This document shows positions 5,158 to 43,433 of a DNA stretch of 64,000 nt, in pieces. The notes under the pieces are model-generated. The model was not told the origin of the DNA and did no database searches. It saw nothing but the letters and a program-made list of their open reading frames with translations. The DNA is taken from the NCBI RefSeq assembly GCF_029953305.1, contig NZ_JASBAN010000001.1, forward strand, positions 1,524,501 to 1,588,500. Direction: 5' to 3'. How positions within the stretch are numbered: the first letter of the stretch is position 1; each line of letters starts with the position of its first letter. This stretch comes from Commensalibacter nepenthis (GTDB taxonomy: Bacteria > Pseudomonadota > Alphaproteobacteria > Acetobacterales > Acetobacteraceae). The translations under genes were made by a program, and so were the position numbers.

Positions 5158-5176
5158 TTTATAATAAATTAGGGAA

Positions 5177-5296: not shown

Positions 5297-5324
5297 TTTA
5301 CACCAAACTACACCATGATATAAT
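5297..5324 (+). promoter_or_regulatory. Integrase promoter overlapping probable integrase arm sites
   Basis: A -35-like TTTACA (5297-5302), a 16-bp spacer and a perfect -10 TATAAT (5319-5324) lie 31 bases before the integrase start. The spacer holds the direct repeat TACACCAAA-C-TACACCA, which recurs as TACACCAAA-T-TACACCAAA at 58882-58900 inside attR. The shared repeats suggest arm-type binding sites, so integrase or excisionase binding could also control int transcription. Confidence 0.55.
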
Positions 5325-5355
5325 GACAAAATAGGCTCGTATTGAAAGATGTATC

Positions 5356-7993: not shown

Positions 7994-7995
7994 AA

Positions 7996-28486: not shown

Positions 28487-28500
28487 CACGGAGAAAAACA

Positions 28501-28944
28501 ATGGCTGTAACGCCTGTTGAATTAAATGGCATTAATCGCTTACTTGCCACGATGAATTTCTTGTCTAATAGCAATTTAAATATTTCTCCTACTGATTTAT
28601 CAGAAGAAGGTATTGATATTAAGGCTGAGGAAGAGGCTGTAACCCCTTTGCGTGGAATGACGGGTTTTGTAAATTCTCCAAAACCATATTGGGGGTTAAG
28701 ATCAACCGTTCATATTTTGAAAAGCTCTCCTGCTGTCAGCTCTTGGCTAGACGCAATTAAGCAAAATGCTACCATTGGCAGGGTGGTTGTATATCCTGAT
28801 AGTAACATGATGGGGACATTCGAACTCCATCAATGCTCTATTCAGACGATTGGAACGGTTAATTTTAATGGAAGCACTGCTTTTATTCCATTTGAATTAT
28901 TTGGTTCACAAGTGATTAACAAAGTTATATGGGATGAAGCATAA
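28501..28944 (+). CDS. Tail tube protein
   Basis: 147 residues, beta-rich, directly after the sheath gene behind the ribosome site cggagaaaaac. GMTGFVNSPKPYWGLRSTVHILKSSPAVSSWLDAIKQNATIGRVVVYPDSNMMGTFELHQCSI suits the tube family that pairs with DUF3383 sheaths. The stop shares one base with the start of the chaperone gene. Confidence 0.78.
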   Translation: MAVTPVELNGINRLLATMNFLSNSNLNISPTDLSEEGIDIKAEEEAVTPLRGMTGFVNSPKPYWGLRSTVHILKSSPAVSSWLDAIKQNATIGRVVVYPDSNMMGTFELHQCSIQTIGTVNFNGSTAFIPFELFGSQVINKVIWDEA

Positions 28945-29501
28945 TGTTTTTTGATAAAAATTTCAATTTAATTGAACATATTACAGATGATATTGAAGTA
29001 TGCTTTAAGCCCATTACAAGGGCTTTTTTTAAACGCTATTACAAACCGTTTTCTGATTTGGCTGGTCGTCTAAATGTCCAAATTGCCGAGAATGGTGGGG
29101 CTTTAATTCAGCAAACCGCCATTCTTGATTTGGAAGATGTGATGCATAAGCAGTTTGGGGATGACTATCAAACCCATTTTAACGGGATCATCTCTGAAAT
29201 AGAACGCACAATTCTGGTCAGTATTGCGTCAAGAGATAAAGAGGCAATCCCTTTTTCAGTAGCTAGAAAAGAAAAGTTCATTGATGAAGATGATTGTGAT
29301 CTTATTCTAAATACCATAATTTTTTTTTCGTGTCTCTTACTCGGAATACTCCCGAAAAACGATGCAGGCTTGAAGTTTTTGCTGGAGCAGTCATCGATAC
29401 ATTCGACATCATTAAGCTATACGGAATGGCGGAAATCATCCGCGACATCGAAAACCGCAGAGACTACAGAAAAGAAGAAGAAAACTTCTATACCTACGTA
29501 A
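28944..29501 (+). CDS. Tail assembly chaperone, zero-frame product
   Basis: 185 residues. Upstream of residue 127 the sequence looks like a genuine chaperone. After the T9 run at 29320-29328 it turns into a Ser/Thr/Lys-rich tail (SSATSKTAETTEKKKKTS) that looks much less protein-like. The heptamer T-TTT-TTT at 29321-29327, in the zero frame, allows a -1 shift into the frame ending at 29623. Tail chaperone genes between tube and tape measure commonly make such G/GT or E/E' pairs. Confidence 0.72.
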   Translation: MFFDKNFNLIEHITDDIEVCFKPITRAFFKRYYKPFSDLAGRLNVQIAENGGALIQQTAILDLEDVMHKQFGDDYQTHFNGIISEIERTILVSIASRDKEAIPFSVARKEKFIDEDDCDLILNTIIFFSCLLLGILPKNDAGLKFLLEQSSIHSTSLSYTEWRKSSATSKTAETTEKKKKTSIPT

Positions 29502-29623
29502 TGAATAGAATTACTGAAGATGATTTTGAAATCTTTGACTTTTATTTATCAAAGTATGGAGGAATGAAAAACAAATATGATTGTGCCGAGCATTTCAGGC
29601 AACGTTATAATATAATGTTTTAA
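29321..29623 (+). CDS. Tail assembly chaperone, -1 frameshift extension
   Basis: After a -1 slip on the T run the product continues RVSLTRNTPEKRCRLEVFAGAVIDTFDIIKLYGMAEIIRDIENRRDYRKEEENFYTYVMNRITEDDFEIF and ends at 29623. This frame has balanced amino-acid use and overlaps the zero frame by about 180 bases. A GTG at 29330 could also start it independently but has no ribosome site. Programmed frameshifting or a homopolymer length difference (T10 instead of T9) would both join the two frames. Confidence 0.65.
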   Translation, partial: FFFVSLTRNTPEKRCRLEVFAGAVIDTFDIIKLYGMAEIIRDIENRRDYRKEEENFYTYVMNRITEDDFEIFDFYLSKYGGMKNKYDCAEHFRQRYNIMF

Positions 29624-29698
29624 GGTAAGTTGGTTGCTTTATAAGAATGTTTAATTAATAATAAGCAATTATTTTATATTTAAAAAGGTTCTTATGAA

Positions 29699-30301
29699 AT
29701 GAAACTGTTTAAATGTTCACTATTGTTAATTGTTGGGTTTGCTCTTTTTACACCCAAAGTATTTGCCGACAATCTCGATAACGTGCCTCTTGCAACGCTA
29801 AAGCAGAGGATGAATCATGGTGATACAGATGCTGAAACTAAATATTACACGATCACAGGAAAAAAATATAAAAACAAATCATTAACTCAACTAGAAGAAA
29901 TGGCTAACCAAGGTGATGGGGGTGCGGCGGCTCAACTTGCGTCTAAATACGAATTTGGTATTGATGGAGCGTCTAAAGATCCAGAAAAAGCATTAGAATG
30001 GTATAAGAAATCTGTTAATCTAGGGTTTGAAGAGTCTTTGATGAATGTAGCTAGTTTTTATCTTGATGGTAAGGTTGTTTCACAAGATGTAAATAAAGCG
30101 ATTAAATTATATGAGCAGGCTGCTAATAAAGGTAGTTTACGCGCCTATAACAATCTAGGTGTACTTTATATGCAAAATAAATATGGTAACCAAGATTATT
30201 TTAAATCAAAGGAATGGTTCGAAAAAGCAGCGGATCAGTCGCCAAACGTTCCCACTGCTTCTCTTGAAAACAACAATTGCCTAGAAGGACAATCATTATG
30301 A
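29699..30301 (+). CDS. Secreted Sel1-repeat protein
   Basis: 200 residues with a clear signal peptide (MKLFKCSLLLIVGFALFTPKVFA, cleavage after FADN likely) and about three Sel1-type repeats (GDGGAAAQLASKYEFGIDGASKDPEKALEWYKKSV; GFEESLMNVASFYLDGK...; GSLRAYNNLGVLYMQNKYG). Exported Sel1 proteins mediate protein-protein contacts. It is not part of tail assembly; it is cargo inserted between the tail chaperone and tape measure genes. Its stop overlaps the start of the BRO-type gene (ATGA), so they are co-translated. Confidence 0.75.
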   Translation: MKLFKCSLLLIVGFALFTPKVFADNLDNVPLATLKQRMNHGDTDAETKYYTITGKKYKNKSLTQLEEMANQGDGGAAAQLASKYEFGIDGASKDPEKALEWYKKSVNLGFEESLMNVASFYLDGKVVSQDVNKAIKLYEQAANKGSLRAYNNLGVLYMQNKYGNQDYFKSKEWFEKAADQSPNVPTASLENNNCLEGQSL

Positions 30302-31071
30302 ATAATCAGAATATATCTAATTTAAATAGCATTATACCGTTTACTTTTGAAAATACAAGTGTTCGTGTTGTCAATCGCGATGGTGAAGCATGGTTTGTAG
30401 GGGCAGATGTTGCAAAAGCTCTAGGGTATGCTAATGCGCAAAAAGCAATACAAACTCATTGTAAAGCAGCAGAAAACTGCAAATCTCCCGTTTTGGGAGA
30501 TTTAGGAATAGAAGCACTTTCTCCTAGAGGGTTAATTTTAATTCCAGAACGTGATGTATATCGTTTAGTGATGAGATCGAAATTACCATCAGCGGAACAG
30601 TTTGAGGAGAAAGTTGTTGGCGAAATATTACCATCTATTCGTAAGACTGGTGGCTATATGGCGACCATTCCTGATGAAACACCAGAACAAACGCTTTCTC
30701 GTGCTTTGTTGCTTGCTAAAAATACTATGGACAGGCAAACACAGGAAATCGCCCAATTAAAACCTAAAGCGGACGGTTATGACTTGATTGCAACCTCTGA
30801 TGGTTCGATGTGTATTACCAATGCTGCCAAATATTTACAGATCAAGCCAAAGGCATTGTTTGATTACCTAAAGATGAATGGTTGGATTTACAGACGTGCA
30901 GGCGGGAAAAACTGGATTGCGTATCAAGATAAATTACAACAAGTTGTTTTGGAACATAAAGTTTCTCAACTATTTACCAATGATGGGGAAAGTAGAATCA
31001 GAGAGCAAGTCTTGGTAACACCCAAAGGAATTGCCAAACTTGCCCAAATCTTTTCCACAGAAAAAGCATAG
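30298..31071 (+). CDS. BRO-N / KilAC antirepressor-type protein
   Basis: 257 residues. N-terminal BRO-N domain (FTFENTSVRVVNRDGEAWFVGADVAKALGYANAQKAIQTHCKAAEN...LSPRGLILIPERDVYRLVMRSKLPSAEQFEEKVVGEILPSIRKTGGY) plus the KilAC domain (LKPKADGYDLIATSDGSMCITNAAKYLQIK...WIAYQDKLQQ...VTPKGIAKLAQIF), paralogous to the C-terminus of the gene at 14632. ATG 30298 follows the agaagga site. The variable loop between HCK and SPRG is coded by a perfect inverted repeat (30481-30503). Its location among tail genes is unusual for a regulator. Confidence 0.82.
   Translation: MNNQNISNLNSIIPFTFENTSVRVVNRDGEAWFVGADVAKALGYANAQKAIQTHCKAAENCKSPVLGDLGIEALSPRGLILIPERDVYRLVMRSKLPSAEQFEEKVVGEILPSIRKTGGYMATIPDETPEQTLSRALLLAKNTMDRQTQEIAQLKPKADGYDLIATSDGSMCITNAAKYLQIKPKALFDYLKMNGWIYRRAGGKNWIAYQDKLQQVVLEHKVSQLFTNDGESRIREQVLVTPKGIAKLAQIFSTEKA
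30481..30503. repeat. Perfect inverted repeat inside the BRO gene
   Basis: AAATCTCCC (30481-30489), 5-nt loop, GGGAGATTT (30495-30503). It encodes the variable loop of the BRO-N domain and corresponds in position to the palindromes in both KilA-N genes. Confidence 0.75.
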
Positions 31072-31080
31072 GAGGATGCT

Positions 31081-31380
31081 ATGTCCAATCCTGCTTTTGT
31101 TGATTTGGATCAGGTTCGTGAAAAGAAAATGGCAACGAACGAGCTGATTGACAATGCTGCTTATGTTGCAAGGAATATTCCTGTTGCATGTGGGATCATT
31201 TATTCTCTAATTGAAAAATTAGAAGCAGATCGTCGCAAGGAAGAGCTATTTGACGGGGAAACAGAAGATTTTTTGTTTCAACTAAAATATCTCATCCATG
31301 CAATGCAAGAAAACACAAACAAAATACACAAATGCTTGATCGATACAGGACATAAAGACAAGCTATACTATCAGGATTAA
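31081..31380 (+). CDS. Hypothetical cargo-island protein
   Basis: 99 residues, helical and charged (NELIDNAAYVARNIPVACGIIYSLIEKLEADRRKEELF...LIHAMQENTNKIHKCLID). The start follows the ribosome site aggaggat. It is the last gene of the first cargo island and is followed at once by the shared terminator hairpin at 31389. No family recognised. Confidence 0.5.
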   Translation: MSNPAFVDLDQVREKKMATNELIDNAAYVARNIPVACGIIYSLIEKLEADRRKEELFDGETEDFLFQLKYLIHAMQENTNKIHKCLIDTGHKDKLYYQD

Positions 31381-31388
31381 TAACAACG

Positions 31389-31416
31389 AAGCCACCCAAT
31401 GCGGTGGCTTTTTTAT
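31389..31416 (+). terminator. Shared island terminator, copy 1
   Basis: Stem AAGCCACC (31389-31396) / GGTGGCTT (31403-31410) with loop CAATGC, followed by a T run. It ends 16-17 bp before the tape measure start. Near-identical copies occur at 37066 and 41024. Confidence 0.85.
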
Positions 31417-31426
31417 TGGAAAAATC

Positions 31427-33550
31427 ATGGCAAATATACCTATCGTAAAAATTGGAACAGATTTCACAAGCTTTTCTAAATTTACGAAAAACTTTTCTAA
31501 TTTTAAAAAGCAAACTGCAAAACCTCAAAATATTGGCTTTAACGTTGATAAAAGTTCAATGGCGGTATTAAAAAGTATCGCTAGTGATTTGCGTGTAATC
31601 TCTCAAATACAAATGGGGATTATTTCCAAATCAAAGCGTTTTCGGGATGTTTTCGAGTCCGTCAAGCTACAAAATCCCGTGATTGATGGAACAGCCACGG
31701 ATAAAACAGATCAAAAGAAAATATCGAATTTTTCAAATGCCGTTTCAAAGATTGCTCAATTTTTAAAATCCGTAAGTGCATCAGGCGTTAAACGCAGTCT
31801 CGCATTTGGTGCAAGGGCAATACCACAACCCGTAAAGGACAAATGGGGAGTATTTTCCAATAGAGTTTCTGATGTTTCCAAAAGAATAAAAGAAAATCCC
31901 CTTGTTGCCAAAAGCTCGGCTGTATTTGTTGATGCAATTAAAAAGTTGACATCCGTAATGGCGAAGTTAACCGCTTTTTCCATTAGAACAGGTGGAACCG
32001 TCTTAGGAAGTGGTATTGGAAAACTATTCGGCGCATTAAAAGCCATTCCTATTGTGGGGGGATTGGCTTTAGGAGCGGTTACAGGGTCTTTGTTTGGCAT
32101 CGGTGGTGCAACAAATAGGGCAACGGGTTTACGCACTCAGGCACGCAATACGGGGCTTACTACTGGGCAAGTATTAGCTGGCAAGAATGTATTAGACCCT
32201 TACATTGATTTTAATGGTTGGGCGCAGCAAATTGCACAAGAGAAAACCTCGATCAATAGTGCGAATATCTTTCAACAATTAGGTGTAGGGCAAAATGCGT
32301 CCACGTCTGATATTCTTGTGGCCAAGATGCGTAAAGCTGCTGAGATTGCTAGGGGATTAATGGCTCAAGGAAAAGGTAATCTTTTGGATAGTGACCCGTT
32401 TTTAAAGCAATGGGGTATTCCTGCTGTTGATGCCCAAGCTCTGGGGAGGTTATCTCCAAAAGAATTAGAACAAGATGTAATAGGAGGATTCGAAAAACAA
32501 AGTAAAAACCTTAATCAGGACGATAGTACAAGCAAGAAGCTACAAGATTTAAATACCAATCTTGGGATTACCTCTGATTTAATCAAGAATAAATTTGCTG
32601 CAGCGATCGCTACCATTGCCCCTCAAATCGAGAAATTGGCAAGTTTTTTCCAAAACTTACTGAATAATATATTTGATCCAAAAACTTTTAAGAATATTAG
32701 CGATTTATTTCAAGGAGGTGCAAAAAAACTAGGCGAGTTTCTAAAGGATTTTAATGGGATTGGTTCTCTATTTGGGATTTTAAAAGGAATATTTGGTGAT
32801 TATTTAATTAAACCTTTAGCAAAATTAATCAAAGACAGCCTCATTGATCCATTAATAAAAGCACTCAGCGAGAAAATAATCACTCCTTTAACCAATCTTT
32901 TTAGAAATTTAAATCCATTTGGTAATGGGGGTAATCCATCCATTCAAAAAACAGCTTATGAAACTCGAGATTTTGGACCATTACTTCAACAGCCAGAATG
33001 GAAGACTTTGCCTGGCGGAATAGCCAACGACAATAAATCTTCTAGTGAGTGGAAAAAGAATCAATATTTAGATAACCTTAATCAAAAAATTGGATTGCCT
33101 CCGAAGTTCTTTCAAGCCCTGCGTCAACTTGAGTCAAGTAATAATGATTTAGCAAAAAATCCAGGAAGCTCTGCTGCTGGTGCTTTTCAATTAACAAAAG
33201 CAACCCAAAAAGATTATGGGGTCAAAAATCCATATAATTTTTATGAAAGTGCAACGGGTGCGGGGCGGTATATCGATGATGCACAGCATATGTTCGATAA
33301 TTATCGTAAATCGATTGTTTCTTATCATATGGGGAAAAATGGTGCTGATAAATTCTTTAAACGCTATGGCGCGAATTGGGAAGCAAATTTGAAACCACAA
33401 GATAAAGAGTATTTAAGGAAATTTGAGCAAATATTAATTCAATTACAACGCCAACAACCTCAACAGGTTGATATTAATATTAATAACAATACAGCCACAT
33501 CCCCTGTTGTGAATGCAGGTATGGCTTCAAAAAGAACGACTCAATTATAA
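31427..33550 (+). CDS. Tail tape measure protein with lytic transglycosylase domain
   Basis: 707 residues. Helical N-terminal half with a hydrophobic Gly-rich segment (KLFGALKAIPIVGGLALGAVTG, residues about 200-225) as is usual for tape measures. The C-terminal part is an SLT lysozyme-like domain (residues about 550-650: PPKFFQALRQLESSNNDLAKNPGSSAAGAFQLT), with the likely catalytic Glu in LES. The domain should help tail penetration through peptidoglycan. Its start follows the shared terminator, so transcripts must read through or begin nearby. Confidence 0.8.
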   Translation: MANIPIVKIGTDFTSFSKFTKNFSNFKKQTAKPQNIGFNVDKSSMAVLKSIASDLRVISQIQMGIISKSKRFRDVFESVKLQNPVIDGTATDKTDQKKISNFSNAVSKIAQFLKSVSASGVKRSLAFGARAIPQPVKDKWGVFSNRVSDVSKRIKENPLVAKSSAVFVDAIKKLTSVMAKLTAFSIRTGGTVLGSGIGKLFGALKAIPIVGGLALGAVTGSLFGIGGATNRATGLRTQARNTGLTTGQVLAGKNVLDPYIDFNGWAQQIAQEKTSINSANIFQQLGVGQNASTSDILVAKMRKAAEIARGLMAQGKGNLLDSDPFLKQWGIPAVDAQALGRLSPKELEQDVIGGFEKQSKNLNQDDSTSKKLQDLNTNLGITSDLIKNKFAAAIATIAPQIEKLASFFQNLLNNIFDPKTFKNISDLFQGGAKKLGEFLKDFNGIGSLFGILKGIFGDYLIKPLAKLIKDSLIDPLIKALSEKIITPLTNLFRNLNPFGNGGNPSIQKTAYETRDFGPLLQQPEWKTLPGGIANDNKSSSEWKKNQYLDNLNQKIGLPPKFFQALRQLESSNNDLAKNPGSSAAGAFQLTKATQKDYGVKNPYNFYESATGAGRYIDDAQHMFDNYRKSIVSYHMGKNGADKFFKRYGANWEANLKPQDKEYLRKFEQILIQLQRQQPQQVDININNNTATSPVVNAGMASKRTTQL

Positions 33551-34194
33551 TGTTTTATGATTTATATAAGCTGGCATTTGAAACATCTCCTATCTTATTG
33601 ACGGGTGGGGTTGCTGAATTGGCTGGTGGGGTTTTGCCAATTATTGCGATAAGTGAAGGGTTAAATCTTGGTATTAACGCTTTATTGGGAAATTTTGAAG
33701 GATTAATGGAAAGCACACGGTTTTTTAGTTTCAAACCAAGTGCTGGGGGAACGGTTATTCAAAATACGGTCGGCATGTATCCATTTTTAAACCAAGCCAC
33801 CGCTGCGAATACGATTATAACAGAGCCTTTACATTTTTCCCTAACAGCTTATTGCCCTGTTGATAGTAATAAAAAGCCTTTTGATAGGCTGGTAAAGTTT
33901 GAAACCATTGTGAATGCGTTAACCTATCATAATAATAATGGGGGATTATATACCGTATTAACGCCGTCTTATATTTATAGGGACTGTTTCTTAACCAATG
34001 TTGTTGACTTGCAATCGGGTGTTGATGATAGTGGTCAATCACAAGTAACGTGGCGGTTTGATTTCGTAAAACCGCTGATTTCTGAAGAAAAAACGGAACA
34101 AGTATTAACCAGCTTTCTAAACAAGACCAAAGGTGGTAATGTGACACAAGCCAGTTGGGGTTCCTTTGGAAATAGTTTAAAGTTTTGGGAGTAA
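33550..34194 (+). CDS. Tail/baseplate protein
   Basis: 214 residues with a hydrophobic N-terminal segment (ILLTGGVAELAGGVLPIIAIS) and a beta-rich remainder (FHFSLTAYCPVD-like, VTWRFDFVKPLI). It starts with one base shared with the tape measure stop and precedes the baseplate plug, the position of hub or tail-distal proteins. Exact role not determined. Confidence 0.55.
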   Translation: MFYDLYKLAFETSPILLTGGVAELAGGVLPIIAISEGLNLGINALLGNFEGLMESTRFFSFKPSAGGTVIQNTVGMYPFLNQATAANTIITEPLHFSLTAYCPVDSNKKPFDRLVKFETIVNALTYHNNNGGLYTVLTPSYIYRDCFLTNVVDLQSGVDDSGQSQVTWRFDFVKPLISEEKTEQVLTSFLNKTKGGNVTQASWGSFGNSLKFWE

Positions 34195-34197
34195 AAA

Positions 34198-34500
34198 ATG
34201 GCAGATGTAAAATATGCGTTTTTACCAACCAATAATAATTCGCCTCCTTTCCAAGCGACGATCTATATGGATGGCAGCGGATATATCTTGAAAGTATGGT
34301 TTAATATTTATTCGCAACGATGGTATTTTTCTTTGTATGATTTCAATCAAACGATTATTAAAACAGCCCCATTGATCTCTTCAACAGCTACTCATGACAT
34401 TAATTTAACTTTCAATCTTTTTACACGAAATAGCTTAGTTTTTAGGGAAGATATAGGGTTTATTCTGGTCCGAGATATTGTGGATCTTCTACAATTTTAA
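34198..34500 (+). CDS. Baseplate plug-like protein
   Basis: 100-residue beta protein (QATIYMDGSGYILKVWFNIYSQRWYFSLYDFNQTII...GFILVRDIVDLLQF) similar to the small baseplate plug family (Pam3 gp18/DUF6983 type). It lies between the preceding tail protein and the hub gene at 37104, now separated from the hub by a 2.6-kb cargo island. Confidence 0.6.
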   Translation: MADVKYAFLPTNNNSPPFQATIYMDGSGYILKVWFNIYSQRWYFSLYDFNQTIIKTAPLISSTATHDINLTFNLFTRNSLVFREDIGFILVRDIVDLLQF

Positions 34501-34891
34501 ATGAATGCAACATTTGTTGTCCACCGAAACGATTGACAAATATTTTTGGTTCTATTCCTTTAACATGTATTGTAAAAGTTAATTTAGTTGGATCATCAAA
34601 ATTTTCTTCGATGGGTTTGTCACTTGTTATATAATAGGTTGTATCACTATTACCATATACAACGTGTATTATAACTTCCTTGGGTGATAACCATTGTGCT
34701 TTTGGTTCGTAAAGATTTAATCGATAACAATTTCCGACTACATTGTTAGGATTCCCTAGTTTACGATTGGCGAGAATAGGCTCAATTTCTTCAAACGATT
34801 TACATTGCTGATCTATATTTTTTGCATATCCCGACGTAGGAAGGATTAATATTGAGAATATTGATCCACAAACAAGTAATAATTTCTTCAT
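34460..34891 (-). CDS. Secreted protein of cargo island B
   Basis: 143 residues with signal peptide MKKLLLVCGSIFSILILPTSGYA and two Cys (QQCKSF, GNCYRL) that could form a disulphide. Unknown family. It is opposite to the late operon and overlaps the baseplate plug end by 41 bases. Its upstream 67 bp (34875-34941), including the aaaaggag ribosome site and first codons, are almost identical to those of the secreted gene at 39090. It probably is expressed from the lysogen as a periplasmic protein. Confidence 0.6.
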   Translation of the reverse strand: MKKLLLVCGSIFSILILPTSGYAKNIDQQCKSFEEIEPILANRKLGNPNNVVGNCYRLNLYEPKAQWLSPKEVIIHVVYGNSDTTYYITSDKPIEENFDDPTKLTFTIHVKGIEPKIFVNRFGGQQMLHSFKIVEDPQYLGPE

Positions 34892-34941
34892 AACAACACT
34901 CCTTTTCCGTAACGATAGGGGAGTTGGGAGGCGTTGGCAAG
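34875..34941 (-). repeat. 67-bp leader repeat, copy 1
   Basis: Matches 39074-39140 at 65 of 67 positions. It covers the ribosome site, the first codons (MKKLLL) of the secreted gene and about 45 bp of 5' leader. The match ends abruptly at both sides, as expected for a duplicated or exchanged expression cassette. Confidence 0.85.
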
Positions 34942-34977
34942 GGGTTATTTGTCGTGGTGTGTGGTTAGTTAAGTAGA

Positions 34978-35006
34978 TTGTTTGTTTATTTAAAATTGTA
35001 TATAAT
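34978..35006 (+). promoter_or_regulatory. Promoter of the island B cargo operon
   Basis: TTGTTT (34978-34983), 17-bp spacer, TATAAT (35001-35006). It would start a transcript near 35013, about 100 bases ahead of the first cargo gene, independent of the late promoter. Confidence 0.55.
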
Positions 35007-35110
35007 AAAAGGTAGAATCTTGCATTTTAGTCAGATTAAATATTATATAAAAATTATATTAACTGTTTTATTATTCATATGGTTATGTACTAACAAGGTA
35101 AATAAAGTTC

Positions 35111-35443
35111 GTGGACTATTCTACTTATTTGTCAATTACATTGACGGCTTTATCAGTCATATTAACTGCGATGACTATTGGTATAGGCATAGTAGCTTGG
35201 GTAACGATAGGGTCAATTCAAAAAAAAGCAAAAAAAATTGCTATAATTACGGTTGAAGCGAAGCTAAAAGAGTTGGAAGATGAAAGAATTTTACCTTTTA
35301 TTAAAGAAACGATTTTGACTAAGACAAATGAACAAATTGAGATTATGATTAAAAATGGTGAATTAAGAGAATATACCTTTCAGAATGAGAGATCTGTTCT
35401 TAATCCTGAAACAGAAAAAGAATTAGAAGAGAAGGAGGAGTAA
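35111..35443 (+). CDS. Membrane-anchored coiled-coil protein
   Basis: 110 residues. One strong membrane segment (LSITLTALSVILTAMTIGIGIVAWVTIGSI, residues 7-36) then a long charged helix (KAKKIAIITVEAKLKELEDERILPFIKE) with an acidic tail. Start codon GTG 35111 after aaggt. First of three genes in a compact operon with an ImmA-like protease and a beta-family protein (gaps of 2 and 6 bases). The layout suggests a membrane anchor for a sensing or killing complex; function unknown. Confidence 0.6.
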   Translation: MDYSTYLSITLTALSVILTAMTIGIGIVAWVTIGSIQKKAKKIAIITVEAKLKELEDERILPFIKETILTKTNEQIEIMIKNGELREYTFQNERSVLNPETEKELEEKEE

Positions 35444-35445
35444 AA

Positions 35446-35949
35446 ATGGCAAAACAATTACTGGAAACTCTTCCAGATCAAACCAAAAAATTAATAACAC
35501 GTTATTTGGATATGCGCCCTGTTCCATTAGGAAAAATAGCAAAAGAGTTCGGAGTGAAAGTGTTTACCTCACCTTTGGAGCAAGGGATATCAGGACAAAT
35601 AGCTAAAGAGAATGGCGATTTTGTTATTAGAATTAATAAATATGAATCTCGTCAACGACAACGTTTTACTCTTGCCCACGAGTTAGCGCATTATTTTCTT
35701 CATAAAGACATTATAGAAAATGAAGGCCCGATAAAAGATAATATTCTTTATAGATCTGGCAAATCTGATACTGTAGAGGCTCAAGCTAATAGACTTGCAG
35801 CTGAAATAATTATGCCAGATGAAAAAATAAAATCTGATTTAAATCAACTAAGGAAAAATATGGATGAAGAAACATTTGATATGATTGCTTCTAAATGGGA
35901 AGTATCTAATCAAGCGTTACGTATAAAACTTTCAACAGTTGGTGGGTAA
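35446..35949 (+). CDS. ImmA/IrrE-family metallopeptidase
   Basis: 167 residues with the zinc-protease motif HELAH in FTLAHELAHYFLHKD and the downstream EAQANRLAAEIIMP helix supplying the third ligand, both diagnostic of ImmA/IrrE proteases. Relatives cut phage or mobile-element repressors in response to damage. Here it sits between a membrane protein and a beta-family protein, so the substrate may be a partner in this operon or one of the XRE repressors. The ribosome site is aaggaggag. Confidence 0.82.
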   Translation: MAKQLLETLPDQTKKLITRYLDMRPVPLGKIAKEFGVKVFTSPLEQGISGQIAKENGDFVIRINKYESRQRQRFTLAHELAHYFLHKDIIENEGPIKDNILYRSGKSDTVEAQANRLAAEIIMPDEKIKSDLNQLRKNMDEETFDMIASKWEVSNQALRIKLSTVGG

Positions 35950-35955
35950 AGTAAT

Positions 35956-37014
35956 ATGCATCTATCAGGCAAAAACTATGTACCAATTCTTTCATTAAGA
36001 CCTAGTGAAATGAATGCATTGGAATATTTGCTTGATCCTGCTAAAGATCAAATGACTCCTGTGATATTGTTGGCTCCTTGGGCTAATTCGAAAACATTAA
36101 ATCAAGCCGTTGAACGTGTTCAAAGAGCTTTTCCTGGTAGGTCATTTATCTTAGATATTGATCGTAATTATGAGATTCCATCTTCGTCTAATATAAATGA
36201 AGCCAAACAAAAGTGGTTGGATTTATCAAAAGCTAGTGGTGATTGTAAAATATGGTACGATTTTTGTGACGAATTTATGAATGTTGTGCCTTGCTTGCGC
36301 ATTAATGGCGATATAGACCAACAACTTAAAAATATACAAACAATAGGTAAAGAATTTTCTGTAAGATTAACTCCTGATATTTATCAATCACCAAGTCGGA
36401 TGAGTGTTTTAATTTCTTCGCTGAAACAAGTTGATATCCCTTATTCTATCATTATCGATGGTGAATGGACAAATGATCCGCTTTCACTTGCAGGATCACA
36501 TGAAAGGGTAGTAACAAACTACATTAATCAATTAGGGGATAATTTAACTATTGTTTCATCATGTACTTCCATGTTGAAGAATTTTCAGGATATATCTGGC
36601 ATAAAAGAATTTCCTTTTTCTAATCATAATTTGGTTGAACAGGTAGCCAGATCAACCAATAGGAAAATCATCTATAGTGATTGGGGAAGTGCACGACCAA
36701 GGGAGCCAGCTAAAATAGCTAGAACGCCTTTACCTAGAATTGATTATCCAACAACTAGTAACAGTTGGCTAATAGCTCGTAAAAATGATTGGACATACGA
36801 AGATGCAGCTAAACAAATAGTTTCAAGTGCAAACAGGGATCTTAACTTGGATTTATGGGGAATGAATTTAATTAGGGCAACAGCCAATGGCAAAAAAGGC
36901 ATAGATAACCCTAGGGCAAATACTGCAGCAAGAATTAATATTCATCTCTATCGCCAAGCTATGCTTGGTATTCAAAATGATGGTTTCGTTGCAGATGCCC
37001 CTTGGATAGATTAA
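35956..37014 (+). CDS. Beta-family protein (T4 beta-like, PF14350)
   Basis: 352 residues with the opening typical of this family (YVPILSLRPSEMNALEYLLDPAKDQMTPVILLAPW) and the repeated TIM-barrel-like pattern with IIDGEWTNDP, SSCTSM and ...DWGSARPREPAKIARTPLPRIDYPT. Homologues are found in phages and scattered bacterial islands; the molecular role is poorly known. It is the largest gene of the operon and is followed by the shared terminator. A defence or superinfection function is an inference from context. Confidence 0.7.
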   Translation: MHLSGKNYVPILSLRPSEMNALEYLLDPAKDQMTPVILLAPWANSKTLNQAVERVQRAFPGRSFILDIDRNYEIPSSSNINEAKQKWLDLSKASGDCKIWYDFCDEFMNVVPCLRINGDIDQQLKNIQTIGKEFSVRLTPDIYQSPSRMSVLISSLKQVDIPYSIIIDGEWTNDPLSLAGSHERVVTNYINQLGDNLTIVSSCTSMLKNFQDISGIKEFPFSNHNLVEQVARSTNRKIIYSDWGSARPREPAKIARTPLPRIDYPTTSNSWLIARKNDWTYEDAAKQIVSSANRDLNLDLWGMNLIRATANGKKGIDNPRANTAARINIHLYRQAMLGIQNDGFVADAPWID

Positions 37015-37065
37015 CGTTTAGTTTTAAATATAAAGAAAGTGTTATTCAATAATCTTAACACACAC

Positions 37066-37091
37066 AAGCCACCCAATGCGGTGGCTTTTTT
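37066..37091 (+). terminator. Shared island terminator, copy 2
   Basis: Stem AAGCCACC (37066-37073) / GGTGGCTT (37080-37087), loop CAATGC, T run. Identical in stem and loop to the copy at 31389. It closes cargo island B, 16 bp before the hub gene start. Confidence 0.85.
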
Positions 37092-37103
37092 ATTGGGGAA
37101 ATC

Positions 37104-38171
37104 ATGCGTTATTATCGAATTGAAATTGCGAACACGCCTACCGTAGATGCGGGATTGGATGATAATGGCAATCCTATTACTTATAAAGATGTAGGCAATA
37201 CCTCATTATATGTCTACACCAGTCATTTACCGAATGGGCAAATGAACCCTGGGGCATTAAATGTGACGTTTAATATTGCTATTTCTTTTTTGCATAACAG
37301 CGCCAATGTGGGGTCATTTGTTCAAATCCAAGGGCTACCTTTATCTTTTCTTTCCCAATCTTATGATTTAAGAAAAAAACATATTCGTATTTTCGGTGGG
37401 ATGACAAAGAATTATGGTATGGATAAAGATAATATAGGGCTGTTATTGAACGGTATTATTGTTGCCCCTTATGGAAACTGGGAAGGTACCAATCAAACAT
37501 TATCTTTTTATATCATTCCATCTACATTTGTGGATCAAAAGGAAATAGTTTTTTATTGGGCTAAGGATCAATTATTAAGCGCTGCATTGAAATCATCATT
37601 GTCGGTAACTTTCCCTAAACATAAGGTTGTTGTAGATATAAACTCTACCAACGATCGAAAAGCGTTAAAAAAAGAAGGTGGAATATATAAAAACATAGAG
37701 AATTTTGCAGAAATCCTAAATAGACAAAAGGACGTATATAAATTTTCCAGTGCCATTAATATGTATGTTCATGATAATACGATCTATGTGACGGATCATA
37801 CATTGGGTAAAAAAATACAACTTAAAACGAAAGACATGGTTGGACAACCAACATGGTCAGATAATAATGATATTACTGTTTCTTTGGTTTTGCGACCAGA
37901 CATTAATATCAATGATATTGTGGTTTTTCCAAAGGAAAGTGCTATATTAGGGGTAATTAAGCCATCAAATAATATTAGAGATTCCTACTTTAATCGTGGT
38001 TTGAATGCCGATATTAAAAACAAACCAATTTTTCAAGGGGAATATATGGTTTTATCGGTTCAGCATGTTGCAAATTATAAATCCCCATCTCCTCAAGATT
38101 GGATTACATTTTTAACCTTGTCTACGATTAACGCGGAAGACAATGTGCTGGTTGAAGGCAATCTAATATAG
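37104..38171 (+). CDS. Baseplate hub-type protein
   Basis: 355 residues, beta-rich, with FIPLS-like hub features (GSFVQIQGLPLSFLSQSYDLRKKHIRIFGGM...GIIVAPYGNWEGTNQTLSFYIIP) and a C-terminal PIFQGEYMVLSVQHVANYKSP. Lies in the baseplate block between the plug and the spike gene (41061). Likely equivalent of the central hub in Mu-like baseplates. Cargo islands flank it on both sides. Confidence 0.6.
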   Translation: MRYYRIEIANTPTVDAGLDDNGNPITYKDVGNTSLYVYTSHLPNGQMNPGALNVTFNIAISFLHNSANVGSFVQIQGLPLSFLSQSYDLRKKHIRIFGGMTKNYGMDKDNIGLLLNGIIVAPYGNWEGTNQTLSFYIIPSTFVDQKEIVFYWAKDQLLSAALKSSLSVTFPKHKVVVDINSTNDRKALKKEGGIYKNIENFAEILNRQKDVYKFSSAINMYVHDNTIYVTDHTLGKKIQLKTKDMVGQPTWSDNNDITVSLVLRPDININDIVVFPKESAILGVIKPSNNIRDSYFNRGLNADIKNKPIFQGEYMVLSVQHVANYKSPSPQDWITFLTLSTINAEDNVLVEGNLI

Positions 38172-38197
38172 AAATGGGAGGCGTTTATTAATGCGTA

Positions 38198-38656
38198 TTA
38201 TGTTGAAGATAGAAGCGCTGTTAATGCAGTCATAATTACGGTAGAGAAGGCTGCATACATAAGAAAAATATAATATGTAATACAAAAAGCAAAAAACAGT
38301 ATTATAGATTGGATAAGGCAGACAAAGAATTCACCTATAATCGTCATACGATCAAAAGGTGTTAAAAGATAATAATCTGTGCGTTGGTTAGGTTGACCAC
38401 AATGAGGACAGTATCTCGCTGCGTTGGCGTGCCTTTCGCTACAAGCAGGGCATGTAACCATTTTATAATTGTTACAGTTTCTATTAGGTAAGAATTCTAA
38501 AATAATAAGTAAAGGATTAAATGCAAAAGTAAATAATGACCACAAAGGTGCATTTCTGCCTTTTCTTTTGGCTGCGATATAAGAAGTGATTGCAGTTATT
38601 AAACTTAAAATGATAGGGATGAGGAGTAAATAAACGGCATTGTGACTGTTTTGCAT
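38198..38656 (-). CDS. Zinc-ribbon membrane protein
   Basis: 152 residues with an N-terminal membrane helix (LLLIPIILSLITAITSYIAA), a second hydrophobic segment (NAPLWSLFTFAFNPLLIILEF), then a zinc ribbon (CPACSERHANAARYCPHCG) and a C-terminal hydrophobic stretch (IIGEFFVCLIQSIILFFAFCITYYIFLMYAAF). Cargo island C, last of three leftward genes. Family unknown; membrane sensor or effector possible. Confidence 0.6.
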   Translation of the reverse strand: MQNSHNAVYLLLIPIILSLITAITSYIAAKRKGRNAPLWSLFTFAFNPLLIILEFLPNRNCNNYKMVTCPACSERHANAARYCPHCGQPNQRTDYYLLTPFDRMTIIGEFFVCLIQSIILFFAFCITYYIFLMYAAFSTVIMTALTALLSST

Positions 38657-38663
38657 AGTATAA

Positions 38664-38858
38664 CTATTTCATATGAGGGCAATTTGTAACGTTATTAATG
38701 ATAACTCTTGTTGAATCATTAAAATATTGCATAGCATTTTGAACGCTGCCAAAATATGGATTAAAGTAAATTTTAGTACGTTCTTCTACGGCAGGGTCAG
38801 ATAAAAAACCATCTGTTGGTAAATCTGCTCCTGTTTGAGATTTAAATAAACTGCTCAT
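38664..38858 (-). CDS. Small hypothetical protein of cargo island C
   Basis: 64 residues, soluble, start overlapping the end of the upstream secreted gene by 17 bases. The sequence (GADLPTDGFLSDPAVEERTKIYFNPYFGSVQNAMQYFNDSTRVI) matches nothing I recognise. Overlap suggests coupled translation with the secreted protein. Confidence 0.45.
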   Translation of the reverse strand: MSSLFKSQTGADLPTDGFLSDPAVEERTKIYFNPYFGSVQNAMQYFNDSTRVIINNVTNCPHMK

Positions 38859-39090
38859 GTAATATGATTAAAGCTGTGTCTTCAAGCATGCATTTCTCTT
38901 TGTTGTTACTGGTAAGATAGCAATTAGAGACATGTTTTATTAAACCACTCTCTCCATTATTACAAAATACTGGTTTAAGTTCTTTTATAACTTGCTTCAT
39001 GGTAGATATCGGAACAGTTTTTTCTAGATTAGCCAAAGCAACACTTGGCAGTCCAAGAGCCAGAATATTAGCGAGTAATAATTTCTTCAT
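38842..39090 (-). CDS. Secreted protein of cargo island C
   Basis: 82 residues with signal peptide MKKLLLANILALGLPSVALA. The mature part has three Cys (VFCNNG, SNCYLT, EKCMLE). The first 67 bp (39074-39140) including the ribosome site are nearly identical to the leader of the secreted gene at 34891, but the mature proteins differ. Likely exported in the lysogen; no family. Confidence 0.55.
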   Translation of the reverse strand: MKKLLLANILALGLPSVALANLEKTVPISTMKQVIKELKPVFCNNGESGLIKHVSNCYLTSNNKEKCMLEDTALIILHEQFI

Positions 39091-39140
39091 AACAACACTC
39101 CTTTTCCGTAACGATAGGAGAGTTGGGAGGTGTTGGCAAG
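39074..39140 (-). repeat. 67-bp leader repeat, copy 2
   Basis: 65/67 match to 34875-34941; the mismatches are two transitions. Marks the left border of the cargo portion of island C in the same arrangement as island B. Confidence 0.85.
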
Positions 39141-39149
39141 ATAAAGATA

Positions 39150-39178
39150 TTTAAAAATCATAATTAAAGTGTTATAAT
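39150..39178 (+). promoter_or_regulatory. Promoter of the island C cargo operon
   Basis: TTTAAA (39150-39155), 17-bp spacer, TATAAT (39173-39178). It leaves a leader of about 95 bases before the DUF488 gene, the same geometry as the promoter in island B. Confidence 0.45.
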
Positions 39179-39278
39179 CTCACTCAAGATAACGAAAATA
39201 CAATAGATAAATTTATAAAAATGTTTTTAAATAGCATGATTAAAAGAGTTGATTAAGTAGGTAATTAAACCTAAATGA

Positions 39279-40193
39279 ATGGTTATGGTTTACATAAAAA
39301 GTTATTCCCTTTTTAAGCGTCAGAAACTATTGCTTGCAATATTGCAAGTATTTGGGGGGCGTTTATCTAGTTTGGATTTGCAAAAATATTTATTTTTATA
39401 TACGCAGAACTACCAAGAAATAAAAAGTTATGATTTTGTTCCTTATAAGTATGGTTGCTTTTCTTTCCAGTCTTATGCTGATCGTAGACGTTTAATTGAA
39501 TTAGGTAAGATTGATAGTAGTAATGAGTGGTGTTTAACAAGTGATTGTGACCATATCAGTGCATTAGATAAGGTTGAGCAAAAAAAACTCTCTTTATTTT
39601 CTAATCGCTACGCAAATCTTCATGGTAATAGTTTAATTCATTATATATATAAAAATTATCCTTATTATGCGATTAATAGTGAAATTGCTTGTAACATTAT
39701 GAATAAAGACGAGTTGCTTGCAATTCAAAATGCACGACCAAAACAACAAGATTTTGGATTTTTTACAATTGGTTATGAAGGGGCAAGTATTGAAAATTAT
39801 CTAAATCGTTTAATTCAAAACAATATTCATGTGGTATGTGATGTAAGAAATAATCCAGTAAGCAGGAAATATGGTTTTTCTAAAACTGCTTTGTCTCAAT
39901 TATTGTCGTTATTAGGCATTCAATATATCCATATACCACAGTTGGGTATTATTTCTGAAAATCGTCAAGAGTTAAACACTCAACAAGATTATGATCGATT
40001 GTTCGATCAATATGAAAAGTCAATTTTGTTAAAACAGCAAGAATCTTTAAATAAATTGAAGTTGATAACAGATAATAACAAAAGAGTTGCAATAACTTGT
40101 TTCGAAGCCGTATATTCGATGTGTCATAGGAGTAGAATTGCGAAAGTTTTGACCAATAGGTCAGACTGGCATTATCCAATAAAACATATTTAA
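39279..40193 (+). CDS. DUF488 protein with N-terminal accessory domain
   Basis: 304 residues. The C-terminal half (from residue 158) is a DUF488 domain: FFTIGYEGASIENYLNRLIQNNIHVVCDVRNNPVSRKYGFSKTALSQLLSLLGIQYIHIPQLGI...CFEAVYSMCHRSRIAKVL. The N-terminal 150 residues (KLLLAILQVFGGRLSSLDLQKYLFLYTQ...YDFVPYKYGCFSFQSYADRRRLIELGKI) resemble the Panacea/DUF4065 antitoxin-like fold, by inspection only. It is co-directional with the next gene (10-base gap). DUF488 proteins are often in mobile islands; biochemical role unknown. Confidence 0.65.
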   Translation: MVMVYIKSYSLFKRQKLLLAILQVFGGRLSSLDLQKYLFLYTQNYQEIKSYDFVPYKYGCFSFQSYADRRRLIELGKIDSSNEWCLTSDCDHISALDKVEQKKLSLFSNRYANLHGNSLIHYIYKNYPYYAINSEIACNIMNKDELLAIQNARPKQQDFGFFTIGYEGASIENYLNRLIQNNIHVVCDVRNNPVSRKYGFSKTALSQLLSLLGIQYIHIPQLGIISENRQELNTQQDYDRLFDQYEKSILLKQQESLNKLKLITDNNKRVAITCFEAVYSMCHRSRIAKVLTNRSDWHYPIKHI

Positions 40194-40203
40194 GGAGTAT
40201 AGT

Positions 40204-40995
40204 TTGGAAACTATTAAGATTTTAATTGCCGTTAAAACTTATCCTTGTCGTTCTGATAAATATGTTGAAACAGTTTGCACTGCTGGATTTCGTGAAGATG
40301 GTTCTTGGATTAGATTATATCCAATTCCTTTTCGATTACATGACAATCAATATGCAAAATATCAGTGGATTGAAGCAAAGATAGAAAAAAATACCACAGA
40401 TATGCGCCCAGAAAGTTATCGTATCGTTGATATAGATAATATTAAATTATTAGACAAAGTTGATACAAAAAACAATTGGCAAGAGCGGCGTAATTTTATT
40501 TTTAGTAACAATAAAATCTATAAAAATTTAACTGAAGTGATTGACCTAGCACGTAATAATGATCTTTCATTAGCGATTTTTAAACCAACCAAAATAATAG
40601 ACTTTGTCGTTGAAAATGTTGAATTAAAAGAACGAGATGAAAATTATAAATATGTATTAGCTCAAAGTAATTTATTTGAAATTGAAGAATATAAAAAAGT
40701 TTGGTTAATGCCTCTTTTATCTAAAAAATTCTTTTATATTTTTGAAGATGAACAAGGAAAAAAAAGCAAGTTATTGATCGAAGACTGGGAAATATGTCAA
40801 TTATATCTTAATTGTAAACGTAGAGAGCCAACTGAAGAGATGGCAATTCAAAAGGTCAAAGAAAAATATTGGGATAATTTTGCGTTTAAGAAGGATTTAC
40901 ATTTTTTTCTAGGAACGACTTTACAATGGCATAGAAGAAGAGCAAAAAATCCTTTTGTAATCACAGGGGTTTTTTATCCACCTTTGCCAAAATAA
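40204..40995 (+). CDS. Uncharacterised DUF488-partner protein
   Basis: 263 residues, start codon TTG after ggagtatag. The opening IKILIAVKTYPCRSDKYVETVCTAGFREDGSWIRLYPIPFR...YAKYQWIEAKIEKNTTDMRPESYR looks like a conserved beta-rich fold and recalls proteins coded beside DUF488 genes in other genomes; I cannot name the family. Ends 28 bases before the shared terminator. Probably forms a two-component module with the preceding gene. Confidence 0.5.
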   Translation: METIKILIAVKTYPCRSDKYVETVCTAGFREDGSWIRLYPIPFRLHDNQYAKYQWIEAKIEKNTTDMRPESYRIVDIDNIKLLDKVDTKNNWQERRNFIFSNNKIYKNLTEVIDLARNNDLSLAIFKPTKIIDFVVENVELKERDENYKYVLAQSNLFEIEEYKKVWLMPLLSKKFFYIFEDEQGKKSKLLIEDWEICQLYLNCKRREPTEEMAIQKVKEKYWDNFAFKKDLHFFLGTTLQWHRRRAKNPFVITGVFYPPLPK

Positions 40996-41023
40996 TTCAA
41001 TTATTAATAATAGAAGAAATACG

Positions 41024-41048
41024 AGCCACCCATGCGGTGGCTTTTTTA
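41024..41048 (+). terminator. Shared island terminator, copy 3
   Basis: Stem AGCCACC (41024-41030) / GGTGGCT (41036-41042), loop CATGC, T run. One base shorter in the loop than copies 1 and 2. It closes cargo island C, 18 bp before the spike gene. Confidence 0.82.
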
Positions 41049-41060
41049 TTGGGAAAAATC

Positions 41061-41681
41061 ATGTATGAAAATCCATTAAAAGCGCCACTCTTCAAATCTC
41101 TTATTGATATTTCGCAAAATACTGTCAATAGCAATAATGATTTGCAGGGAAAAATATGGCCTGCAACAGTCGAAAATTATGATGGATTTATAGCGATTGT
41201 TAATATCGAAATATCCTCGGTTAATAATTACCCGCAAATAGAAGTGCCTGTTTTAAGATCAGAATATATAAGATTGCCTATTCAAAAAGGTTGTCGGGGT
41301 CTTTTAATACCCTTGGCTGTTAATATAGATCACATTATAGGGATGGGGCAGACTGCGCCTACGGATATAGCTGGTTTTAATTTGGGTAATATGGCTTTTC
41401 TACCCATTTCCAGCCAGTTAGATCCAAAAACTGATAAAGATATTTTGGTTATTTACGGCGAGGATCAAGGTGTAAAAATCCAGTCTAAAGATGGAAAGAC
41501 TTTCGTTTATATCACAAAAAATTCCATAGAGATTGACGGGGATGTTACTCTTAAAAAGAATATTACTATTAATGGGGATGTGGATATTAAAGGCACCCTG
41601 ACAGTTGGTAATATTGAATTCAAATCTCACCAACATGAGAATGGTAACCAAGGTCAGCCAACAGGCGGGGTGATTGGATGA
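41061..41681 (+). CDS. Baseplate assembly / spike protein (gpV or Gp138-like)
   Basis: 206 residues. OB-fold-like N-terminal part (GKIWPATVENYDGFIAIVNIEISSV), then beta-helical repeats (IEIDGDVTLKKNITINGDVDIKGTLTVGNIEF) and the His-containing tip KSHQHENGNQGQPTGGVIG, typical of phage membrane-piercing spikes. ATG 41061 follows the shared terminator; the frame extends upstream through the hairpin. Overlaps the next gene by 4 bases. Confidence 0.75.
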   Translation: MYENPLKAPLFKSLIDISQNTVNSNNDLQGKIWPATVENYDGFIAIVNIEISSVNNYPQIEVPVLRSEYIRLPIQKGCRGLLIPLAVNIDHIIGMGQTAPTDIAGFNLGNMAFLPISSQLDPKTDKDILVIYGEDQGVKIQSKDGKTFVYITKNSIEIDGDVTLKKNITINGDVDIKGTLTVGNIEFKSHQHENGNQGQPTGGVIG

Positions 41682-42028
41682 GGATTTATCATAAAGTCAG
41701 GAATGAGGACACAGGAAAAGAAGAATGGTTGGTTCTTACCAGTGACGATGATGTTTATGTTTACTGGTTGATACAAGTTTTAAGATTAGTATTAGGGGAA
41801 AGTCCGTTTTATTCTACTTATGGCATTCCTGCGGTTGAGACGATAGCAACCAATATTTATCCTGATTACTATGTTGCTTTAGTAAGGGATCAATTTTCCC
41901 CTTACTTCGCATCTTTGACTATTACGCGTGTTACTCAAGAACGTGACCCGATTTACAATGTTAATGTTCTTACGAATAACGGCAGACAAATTAACCAAAT
42001 AATTCAAGGCATAAGAAATAATGGCTAA
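41678..42028 (+). CDS. Baseplate wedge protein (gp25/gpW-like)
   Basis: 116 residues between the spike and baseplate J genes, the standard position of the gp25-like wedge component. EEWLVLTSDDDVYVYWLIQVLRLVLGESPFYSTYGIPAVETI and the final ITRVTQERDPIYNVNVLTNNGR agree with this. Overlaps both neighbours by a few bases. Confidence 0.65.
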   Translation: MRIYHKVRNEDTGKEEWLVLTSDDDVYVYWLIQVLRLVLGESPFYSTYGIPAVETIATNIYPDYYVALVRDQFSPYFASLTITRVTQERDPIYNVNVLTNNGRQINQIIQGIRNNG

Positions 42029-43433
42029 TAATTTAGTTATTACGCAAGAAGGGGTGGTTCCAACTCCTCCTCAGGTCATTCGGGAGCAAATTCAATCTGA
42101 AATTGAAAATACGGTTCCTGATTATACCGCATCTTTACCAGGAACATTGATTGAAGATTTACTTAGCACTTGTTGTGGATGTGCAGTTTTTATTGAGCAA
42201 GCAAAAGTAGATTTAATTAATTCCATCTCTCCATCAACAGCAAATGAAGCATTATTGGATCAGCTGGGTGTTGTATATGGTATTATACGGAAATCGGGAT
42301 CAAGTGGTAGTGCTTATGTAGTTTTTACGGGGACAGCTGGTTTTATTGTGCCACGTGGCTTTATTATTTCGGATGGAATACATCGTTTTATTGTGCAGAA
42401 TGATACGGTCATTAATCAAGAAGGGTCATCTGGGCAAGTATATGTATTAGCACAAGATACGTCTGTTTTCGATATTCCAGCAAACACAATCACTAAGATT
42501 GAATCATCTGTTCGTAACGATATAAAATTAACGGTTACTAACCCACAAATTGGCATTATTGGTTCAAAAGCTGAATCTTACGCAGATTATAGAGCCAGGA
42601 TTATGAATGCGGGTATTGTAACCTCAACAGCTACGCCTACCATGATACGCACTAAATTACTTGCTATTCCTAATGTTCAACAAAGATTATTATCAATTAT
42701 TGCAAATGGAGATGGCTACTCTGTTATCTGTGGGGGTGGAGATCCTTATGATGTGGCGAATGCTATTTTTCAATCGATCCCAACGACTGGAATTTTGAAG
42801 CCATCTGTTATTGATGTGTCAAGGTTTGACAAAGGTAATCCAACAGTTATGTATACTAATTTAATCCATGGATTAAAAGATGGAGACTTGGTCACATTCT
42901 CAGGTCTAGGGTTTAACGACCTTCAGAATAAACGATTTAAGGCAAAAATTTTAACAGCAAATAGTTTCTCAATTCCAGTAGATACTACGAATTTTTCTGA
43001 TTATACAGGTGGTTTGATCTTAAATCAAAACATCAGAAACCGTTCAATTATTTTACGCGATGGCGTAGATAGTTATACAATCCCTTTTGTTGTTCCTTTG
43101 CAGCAACAAGTTGAAGTTCAATTAATTTGGAATACGGATGTTGAGAGCAGTCTGTATGTAGGCGCTATTTCCAACACAACCATACCGTTAATTGTTCAGT
43201 ATATAAACGGTATAAGTATCGGGGACTCAATTAATTTATACGAAGTTGAAAAAATATTTCTTGAAGGCGTAAACCAAGTTGTTAATCAAAATTTAGTTAC
43301 CAATATCGAAATTTTGATCTTTATTGATGGGGTTCAGCAAGAACCATTACCAAAAGAAAATATAATCCGTGGTGACCCTCAATCATATTTTTATACCACT
43401 GAAGAAAAAATAGTAGTGACAGATGGAAAATAA
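42021..43433 (+). CDS. Baseplate J-like protein
   Basis: 470 residues. The conserved J pattern is clear: IENTVPDYTASLPGTLIEDLLSTCCGCAVFIEQAKVDLINSISPSTANEALLDQLGVVYGI, then SYADYRARIM and the C-terminal half with an inserted beta domain (NPTVMYTNLIHGLKDGDLVTFSGL). It is a main wedge component. Overlaps the next gene by 11 bases. Confidence 0.85.
   Translation: MANNLVITQEGVVPTPPQVIREQIQSEIENTVPDYTASLPGTLIEDLLSTCCGCAVFIEQAKVDLINSISPSTANEALLDQLGVVYGIIRKSGSSGSAYVVFTGTAGFIVPRGFIISDGIHRFIVQNDTVINQEGSSGQVYVLAQDTSVFDIPANTITKIESSVRNDIKLTVTNPQIGIIGSKAESYADYRARIMNAGIVTSTATPTMIRTKLLAIPNVQQRLLSIIANGDGYSVICGGGDPYDVANAIFQSIPTTGILKPSVIDVSRFDKGNPTVMYTNLIHGLKDGDLVTFSGLGFNDLQNKRFKAKILTANSFSIPVDTTNFSDYTGGLILNQNIRNRSIILRDGVDSYTIPFVVPLQQQVEVQLIWNTDVESSLYVGAISNTTIPLIVQYINGISIGDSINLYEVEKIFLEGVNQVVNQNLVTNIEILIFIDGVQQEPLPKENIIRGDPQSYFYTTEEKIVVTDGK

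Follow-up and report, generated by a model that had tools for sequence, protein, structure and literature searches.

Accessory gene cassettes with shared ends at the tail-gene boundaries of Commensalibacter prophages

Morons are already known; what is unusual in the prophages described here, whose host is the bee-gut bacterium Commensalibacter, is the sharing of promoter and terminator ends across sites and phage types. The prophage under study lies in a 64,000-nucleotide stretch of the 2.52 Mb genome of C. nepenthis (the window; contig NZ_JASBAN010000001.1, positions 1,524,501 to 1,588,500) and carries three islands of accessory genes, A, B and C, between its tail genes. The closest described counterpart is the 'ant moron' of P22-like phages. 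In the passages of PMC2629481 that treat it, this is a set of accessory genes in the late operon, usually independently expressed, whose content varies and which some relatives lack; besides an antirepressor and Arc/Mnt repressors it holds an exclusion gene, and it is thought to influence the amount of late transcription that reaches the tailspike gene. The islands resemble it in being variable late-operon accessory genes with antirepressor modules among them. However, the ant moron, as those passages describe it, occupies one location, before the tailspike gene, whereas here one phage has three sites and other phage types have sites elsewhere, and the end modules are common to several of them.

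Other systems resemble the islands in part. Mobile regulatory cassettes of T4-type phages, the PeSLs, were reportedly described by Arbiol et al. in 2010. They are repeated stem-loop regulatory DNA thought to promote gene shuffling (PMC3950731), as may be the case here, but they reportedly unite promoter and stem-loop in one repeated intergenic element of lytic phages; in our temperate phages the two lie at opposite cassette ends and are not so united. The SAS/ESAS of Cluster K mycobacteriophages are short repeats by translation starts, some of them containing inverted repeats, that were suggested as possible recombination targets; unlike the modules here, they are not described in the relevant part of PMC3203893 as ends of swappable tail-operon cargo. 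The regions of genomic plasticity of Pseudomonas Mu-like phages are likewise set positions at which the accessory genes vary, anti-CRISPR genes among them, but the part of PMC4378225 that concerns them describes no common end modules. The available part of a paper on Commensalibacter prophages (PMC10149009) describes no such cassettes, and no title or abstract on a shared-end cassette format was found in the open-licence literature.

The most likely reading is that the islands are morons with shared ends that probably help their exchange by recombination. The comparison draws on five phages of one type: that of the window (W), C11 of C. communis, I9 of C. intestini, and L095 and L097 from IMG/VR (hub identity 49%). 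The labels tape-measure, spike, major tail and Mu-like were assigned from position and gene order rather than from family hits, whereas hub and baseplate J rest on family matches; the tape-measure-like gene has an SLT domain.

Each island in the window is closed by the same module on the forward strand. After island A, a hairpin, a T-run, a ribosome-site region and an ATG (31389-31429) lead into a tape-measure-like gene (31427-33550). Hairpin, T-run and ATG recur after island B (37066-37106), before the baseplate-hub gene (37104-38171), and after island C (41023-41063), before a spike-like gene (41061-41681; this label by position only). The stem, of 8-9 bp, is followed by a T-run, TATTGG and ATG; the three hairpins have folding energies of -14.4, -13.1 and -13.2 kcal/mol, and the ATG of the next tail gene lies 18-19 nt past the first T of the T-run and 12-13 nt past its end. 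Consistent with an earlier note on this DNA, which had assigned one terminator module to all three islands, the hairpin pattern occurs at exactly these three sites in the window and at none in 100 shuffles. By their hairpins and T-runs, the cassettes have their own predicted intrinsic terminator. Rfam gave no match within 26000-45000 at gathering scores. The terminator at 41037-41063 can also pass for the beginning of an open reading frame (ORF; GTG, MAFLLG...), and gene-calling programs may for that reason annotate the following tail gene as starting within the hairpin.

The module extends well beyond the window. A scan of 15 regions for the hairpin, then a T-run, then TATTG returned 21 sites. 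In 20 of them a tail gene starts at a distance of 17-23 nt from the first T (23 nt in L097, where another ATG is due to chance); the sole non-tail site belongs to an orphan cassette (W2). When 18 distinct hairpins were aligned, 95.8% of cells paired and three pairs were changed on both sides, a level of covariation reached by 1-2 of 500 shuffles, although the row of C11 site A is off by one column and related sequences may beat shuffles without structure. This pattern suggests a hairpin kept with compensating changes, which supports the reading of the islands as morons with shared ends. Genus-wide, the terminator-ATG pattern has 11 matches, all at boundaries of tail genes in prophages; an insert lies upstream of 10, and one is at an empty site. 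Family-wide, there were 11 matches in 4 of 397 genomes, all Commensalibacter; 10 sit at prophage tail boundaries, and one, in G300:C15, lies ahead of an ORF that is similar to an ORF of prophage W3. The window's own genome has five matches, two in the window, two in another prophage (one of them not next to a start codon) and one beside the orphan cassette. An ordinary host terminator, which the earlier note had named as an outcome contrary to its proposal, is rejected on the strength of these positions.

At the other end, islands B and C share a 67-bp leader on the reverse strand (34875-34941 and 39074-39140). The earlier note took it for the first part of a duplicated secreted-protein gene. 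The identity of 65/67 holds, although the genes differ; judged by the ORF starts, however, only 17 bp are coding, and the other 50 bp contain a promoter-like TTGCCA-17-TATCGT and AAGGAG, so that the repeat comprises a predicted promoter, a ribosome-binding site and the first 17 bp of a gene. Across seven leader copies, invariant columns number 7/8 in TTGCCAAC, 7/7 in TATCGTT and 9/12 in the ribosome-binding block, as against 4/15 in the spacer, 0/15 upstream and 5/39 in the signal-peptide region. Because the -35, -10 and ribosome-binding elements are conserved but the spacer is not, the leader has the pattern of a promoter plus ribosome site and is mostly a predicted module of this kind rather than a gene start. 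In I9 the same leader precedes a Zn-ribbon gene that lacks a signal-peptide start; judging from this arrangement, the module can drive a different gene. All seven copies are opposed to the tail genes.

The leader is also confined in its distribution. Its exact pattern occurs at five places across the genomes of 84,980 species, all Commensalibacter (own-genome records perhaps excluded), and once in IMG/VR. With up to three mismatches it is found at eight places in 4 of 9 genus genomes, seven in tail islands and one, degenerate, at the orphan cassette; within the genome that holds the window, the 67-bp repeat itself is matched twice, and one degenerate relative lies at C1:129625. Five records of named phages match it partly, none covering 80%.

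Pairwise comparisons place the edges of exchanged DNA at these modules. At site B, W and C11 have the leftward gene in common (96% over 412 bp) and flanks that are 88% identical, but their cargo is different; similarity ends 17 bp past the leader and returns at the hairpin. Between different phage types in one genome, C11 (at site C) and C7 share a stretch of 483 bp, 90% identical, that runs from GGCGTTGGCAAG of the leader through the ATG. I9 (at site C) and I22, again two phage types in one genome, share 426 bp (94%) and 360 bp (96%), beginning in the T-run of the preceding terminator and finishing at TATTGG. The C7 region has only two weak matches to window proteins (30-34%). The edges of the two cassettes shared between phage types are the leader -35, a T-run, TATTGG and the ATG. 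Related Sel1 genes lie at site A in the window and at site C in C11 and I9. The earlier note had proposed a docking scaffold for swapping accessory operons, to be abandoned if relatives carried the same cargo at all sites. Instead, cargo differs at one site and related cargo appears at different sites and in different phage types, with boundaries at leader and hairpin; this much of the proposal stands, and recombination through the shared ends would be the probable route.

Site A is full in W, L095 and L097 and empty in C11 and I9, with the hairpin in 5/5. Site B is full and has the hairpin in W and C11, and is empty without it in I9, L095 and L097; site C is full with the hairpin in W, C11 and I9, and empty without it in L095 and L097. 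At A, B and C alike, then, some phages carry cargo between two genes that have none between them in a relative, as is characteristic of morons. We scored 61 boundaries in the five phages, counting gaps (known for 60) over 400 bp as inserts and excluding site A of L097, whose left neighbour was not located. The hairpin was found at 7/7 inserts versus 2/53 uninterrupted boundaries (Fisher p 9e-8, which overstates the certainty because the phages are related). A hand count over all phage types gave 17 inserts above that length. Of these, 15 end in the scanned hairpin; the other two (C9, I20), beside the tape-measure-like gene, end in one whose stem is different (GGCACC/GGTGC) and which also has a T-run. 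From these sequences the hairpin seems to be both a boundary element and a cassette end, coming with the cassette at B and C and older at A.

Several observations weigh against exchange through the modules. The hairpin stands without cargo at site A of C11 and I9, and C9 has one without an insert in a 133-bp gap before a 199-aa gene and after a major-tail-like gene (I20 has an extra 171-aa gene where C9 has this gap). C7 has a leader-bearing cassette without rightward cargo. In island A the Sel1 gene is joined to the antirepressor cassette at a 7-bp microhomology, AAAGCAG, and not at a module. As many as 472 phage records, unrelated phages included, partly match the hairpin module at E up to 10, and hairpin likeness alone is therefore weak evidence of descent. 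The occupancy comparison covers few genomes, from related phages. In favour of exchange, the window prophage encodes a candidate recombination pair (6971-8913, reverse strand), made up of an AAA protein (6971-7993), whose Sak4-like match is weak, and an exonuclease VIII-like protein (7996-8913); against it, the latter is complete in the own genome only, has two partial matches at contig ends in C. communis, and has none in 7/9 genus genomes. The hairpins at empty boundaries and the look-alikes in unrelated phages weaken the strict version of the docking scaffold.

Some of these observations would also fit ordinary morons that arose by rare illegitimate insertion, their ends being alike by convergence or by descent from early insertions, and the modules not guiding exchange. 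The similar hairpins of unrelated phages, the hairpins at empty boundaries, the fusion in island A and the different stems at some boundaries are all compatible with such an origin. Yet cargo edges coincide with the modules in the compared pairs, the leader is confined to Commensalibacter with no phage record covering 80% of it, and the two window leaders differ at 2/67 bases despite their differing genes; we therefore find this origin rather doubtful. It is unlikely that the hairpins are mainly late-operon attenuators setting tail-protein ratios, beside which cargo settles where it is least harmful. Such a role would suit a hairpin that precedes the tape-measure-like gene in all five related phages, empty or occupied, as well as the C9 hairpin, but at sites B and C the hairpin is in 5/5 occupied and 0/5 empty alleles.

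A cassette was also seen outside any recognisable prophage (L064 15640-17700; G000:C1 about 127.6-129.7 kb). This orphan, beside tRNA-Leu, has a degenerate leader and the hairpin on either side of an RmrA-like protein and a 229-aa protein, and the matching tRNA-Leu locus of C. communis has an integrase-domain gene and tail-fibre-like ORFs; because of this setting, it is probably a prophage remnant. That the cassettes are autonomous mobile elements moving outside phages too, as their discrete ends and the orphan might suggest, is very improbable, since no recombinase family was found among the cassette proteins searched and the orphan itself resembles a remnant.

Within the window, island A (29624-31388, forward strand) opens with a rightward Sel1-repeat gene (29699-30301), without a leftward gene and without a leader, followed by a Bro-N/KilAC antirepressor (30298-31071) and a 99-aa gene (31081-31380). 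The Sel1 gene product has 200 aa versus 230 aa for its C11 relative and continues into antirepressor-cassette sequence. In island B, a leftward gene (34460-34891, reverse strand) encodes a 143-aa protein with a signal-peptide-like start, 97% identical to a protein in C11, and overlaps the 3' end of a tail gene (34198-34500). Structures predicted from single sequences for this product and for that of L041 1242-1673 had mean pLDDT values of 44.3 and 59.5 and were not used. A candidate promoter identified by eye, TTGTTT-17-TATAAT (34978-35006, forward), precedes the rightward cargo (35111-37014), which consists of a 110-aa ORF, an M78 peptidase (35446-35949) and a Beta protein (35956-37014). Against defence models this cargo fits capP and beta better than PD-Lambda-2_B and PD-Lambda-2_C, to which the matches are weak (E 4e-8 and 1e-4); PD-Lambda-2 A gave no match.

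Island C follows the general layout that the earlier note had given to B and C, a leftward secreted-protein gene and then cargo, but departs from it in two respects: there is an additional Zn-ribbon gene (38198-38656, reverse strand; weak Pfam match), and the secreted-type gene is split by a frame break into two reading frames (38664-38858 and 38842-39090, reverse strand) that correspond to a single 143-aa gene in a relative. The predicted promoter, TTTAAA-17-TATAAT with TG (39150-39178, forward), was found by pattern match; it is weak evidence alone because the scan was at background, with 92 promoter-like sites versus 87.4 in shuffles. The cargo (39279-40995, forward strand) comprises a DUF488 protein matching PDC-M19A (39279-40193) and a PDC-M19B match (40204-40995).

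Related phages carry further predicted defence and immunity genes. Site B of C11 holds AbiLi and AbiLii side by side (E 6e-78 and 4e-24), the arrangement of AbiL, with a function that is predicted; its site C holds Sel1 and an antisense lipoprotein-like gene. Site C of I9 has Sel1, a Zn-ribbon, a DUF4747 protein and a second ORF, then a terminator and a second cassette that is related to one in phage I22 and has a DUF6414 match under the cut-off. As in P22-like phages, antirepressor-type genes lie between late genes: KilAC/Bro-N in island A of the window, KilAC, Bro-N, KilA-N or Rha in tail islands of C13, G040, L095 and L097, and an ORF6N protein in P3. An Arc-domain gene adjoins the antirepressor-type gene in C13, G040 and P3; none was seen in window island A. 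Tandem duplicated leftward secreted-type genes stand beside the tape-measure-like gene in L091 (4996-6244) and L092 (reversed, 5117-6300), the duplicates being identical at 87% over 603 bp in I20 and at 91% over 550 bp in C9. Together, the defence-model matches and the small secreted or membrane proteins suggest roles in defence and superinfection exclusion.

The window prophage also has an integrase gene (5356-6366), a small-terminase match (16626-17045), a baseplate hub (phrog_196) and a baseplate J protein, and an IS1595-type transposase (51237-52148) lies near its right part. In prophage W3 of the same genome (L090 reversed, 636-1176) the tape-measure-like gene seems to be missing between the 199-aa and 225-aa tail genes. 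In C. papalotli (L036 11911-13674) a tape-measure-like ORF, read by eye, is fused to an integrase-like N-terminus, a sign of a rearranged prophage.

These features fit together in a mechanism that we propose from sequence. Accessory cassettes would be inserted at tail-gene boundaries of the late operon, and a typical leader-bearing cassette would consist of a leftward gene whose product is a small secreted or membrane protein and which is under the conserved promoter/ribosome-site module, a rightward operon with a phage-defence or antirepressor module, and an intrinsic terminator whose T-run leads straight into the next tail-gene start region. In a lysogen, cargo would be transcribed up to the hairpin, keeping the tail genes silent. 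With 12-13 nt between T-run and ATG there is no space for a promoter, so the downstream tail genes would need read-through, and late transcription during lytic growth would supply it. Since similar ends recur at several boundaries and in phages of several types, cassettes could be replaced, stacked or moved between phages by recombination at leader and terminator, perhaps via the phage-encoded exonuclease/Sak4-like pair. We suggest more tentatively, as a possibility, that the temperate phages of one genus share a standard format, in which one end is a promoter module and the other a terminator that merges into the start of the next gene. Through recombination at these ends, about 40-67 bp long, phages whose tails differ would exchange, replace and stack defence or immunity operons at several boundaries without a dedicated integrase.

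Such a format would give prophages a concrete and testable route to swap defence systems without harming essential late genes, with regulatory ends doubling as recombination targets, and it would explain the near-identical cargo in different phage types of one cell. The position of the hairpins implies that late transcription must pass terminators in these phages. The leader and the hairpin-ATG module may serve as sequence handles for unannotated defence cassettes in insect-gut symbionts.

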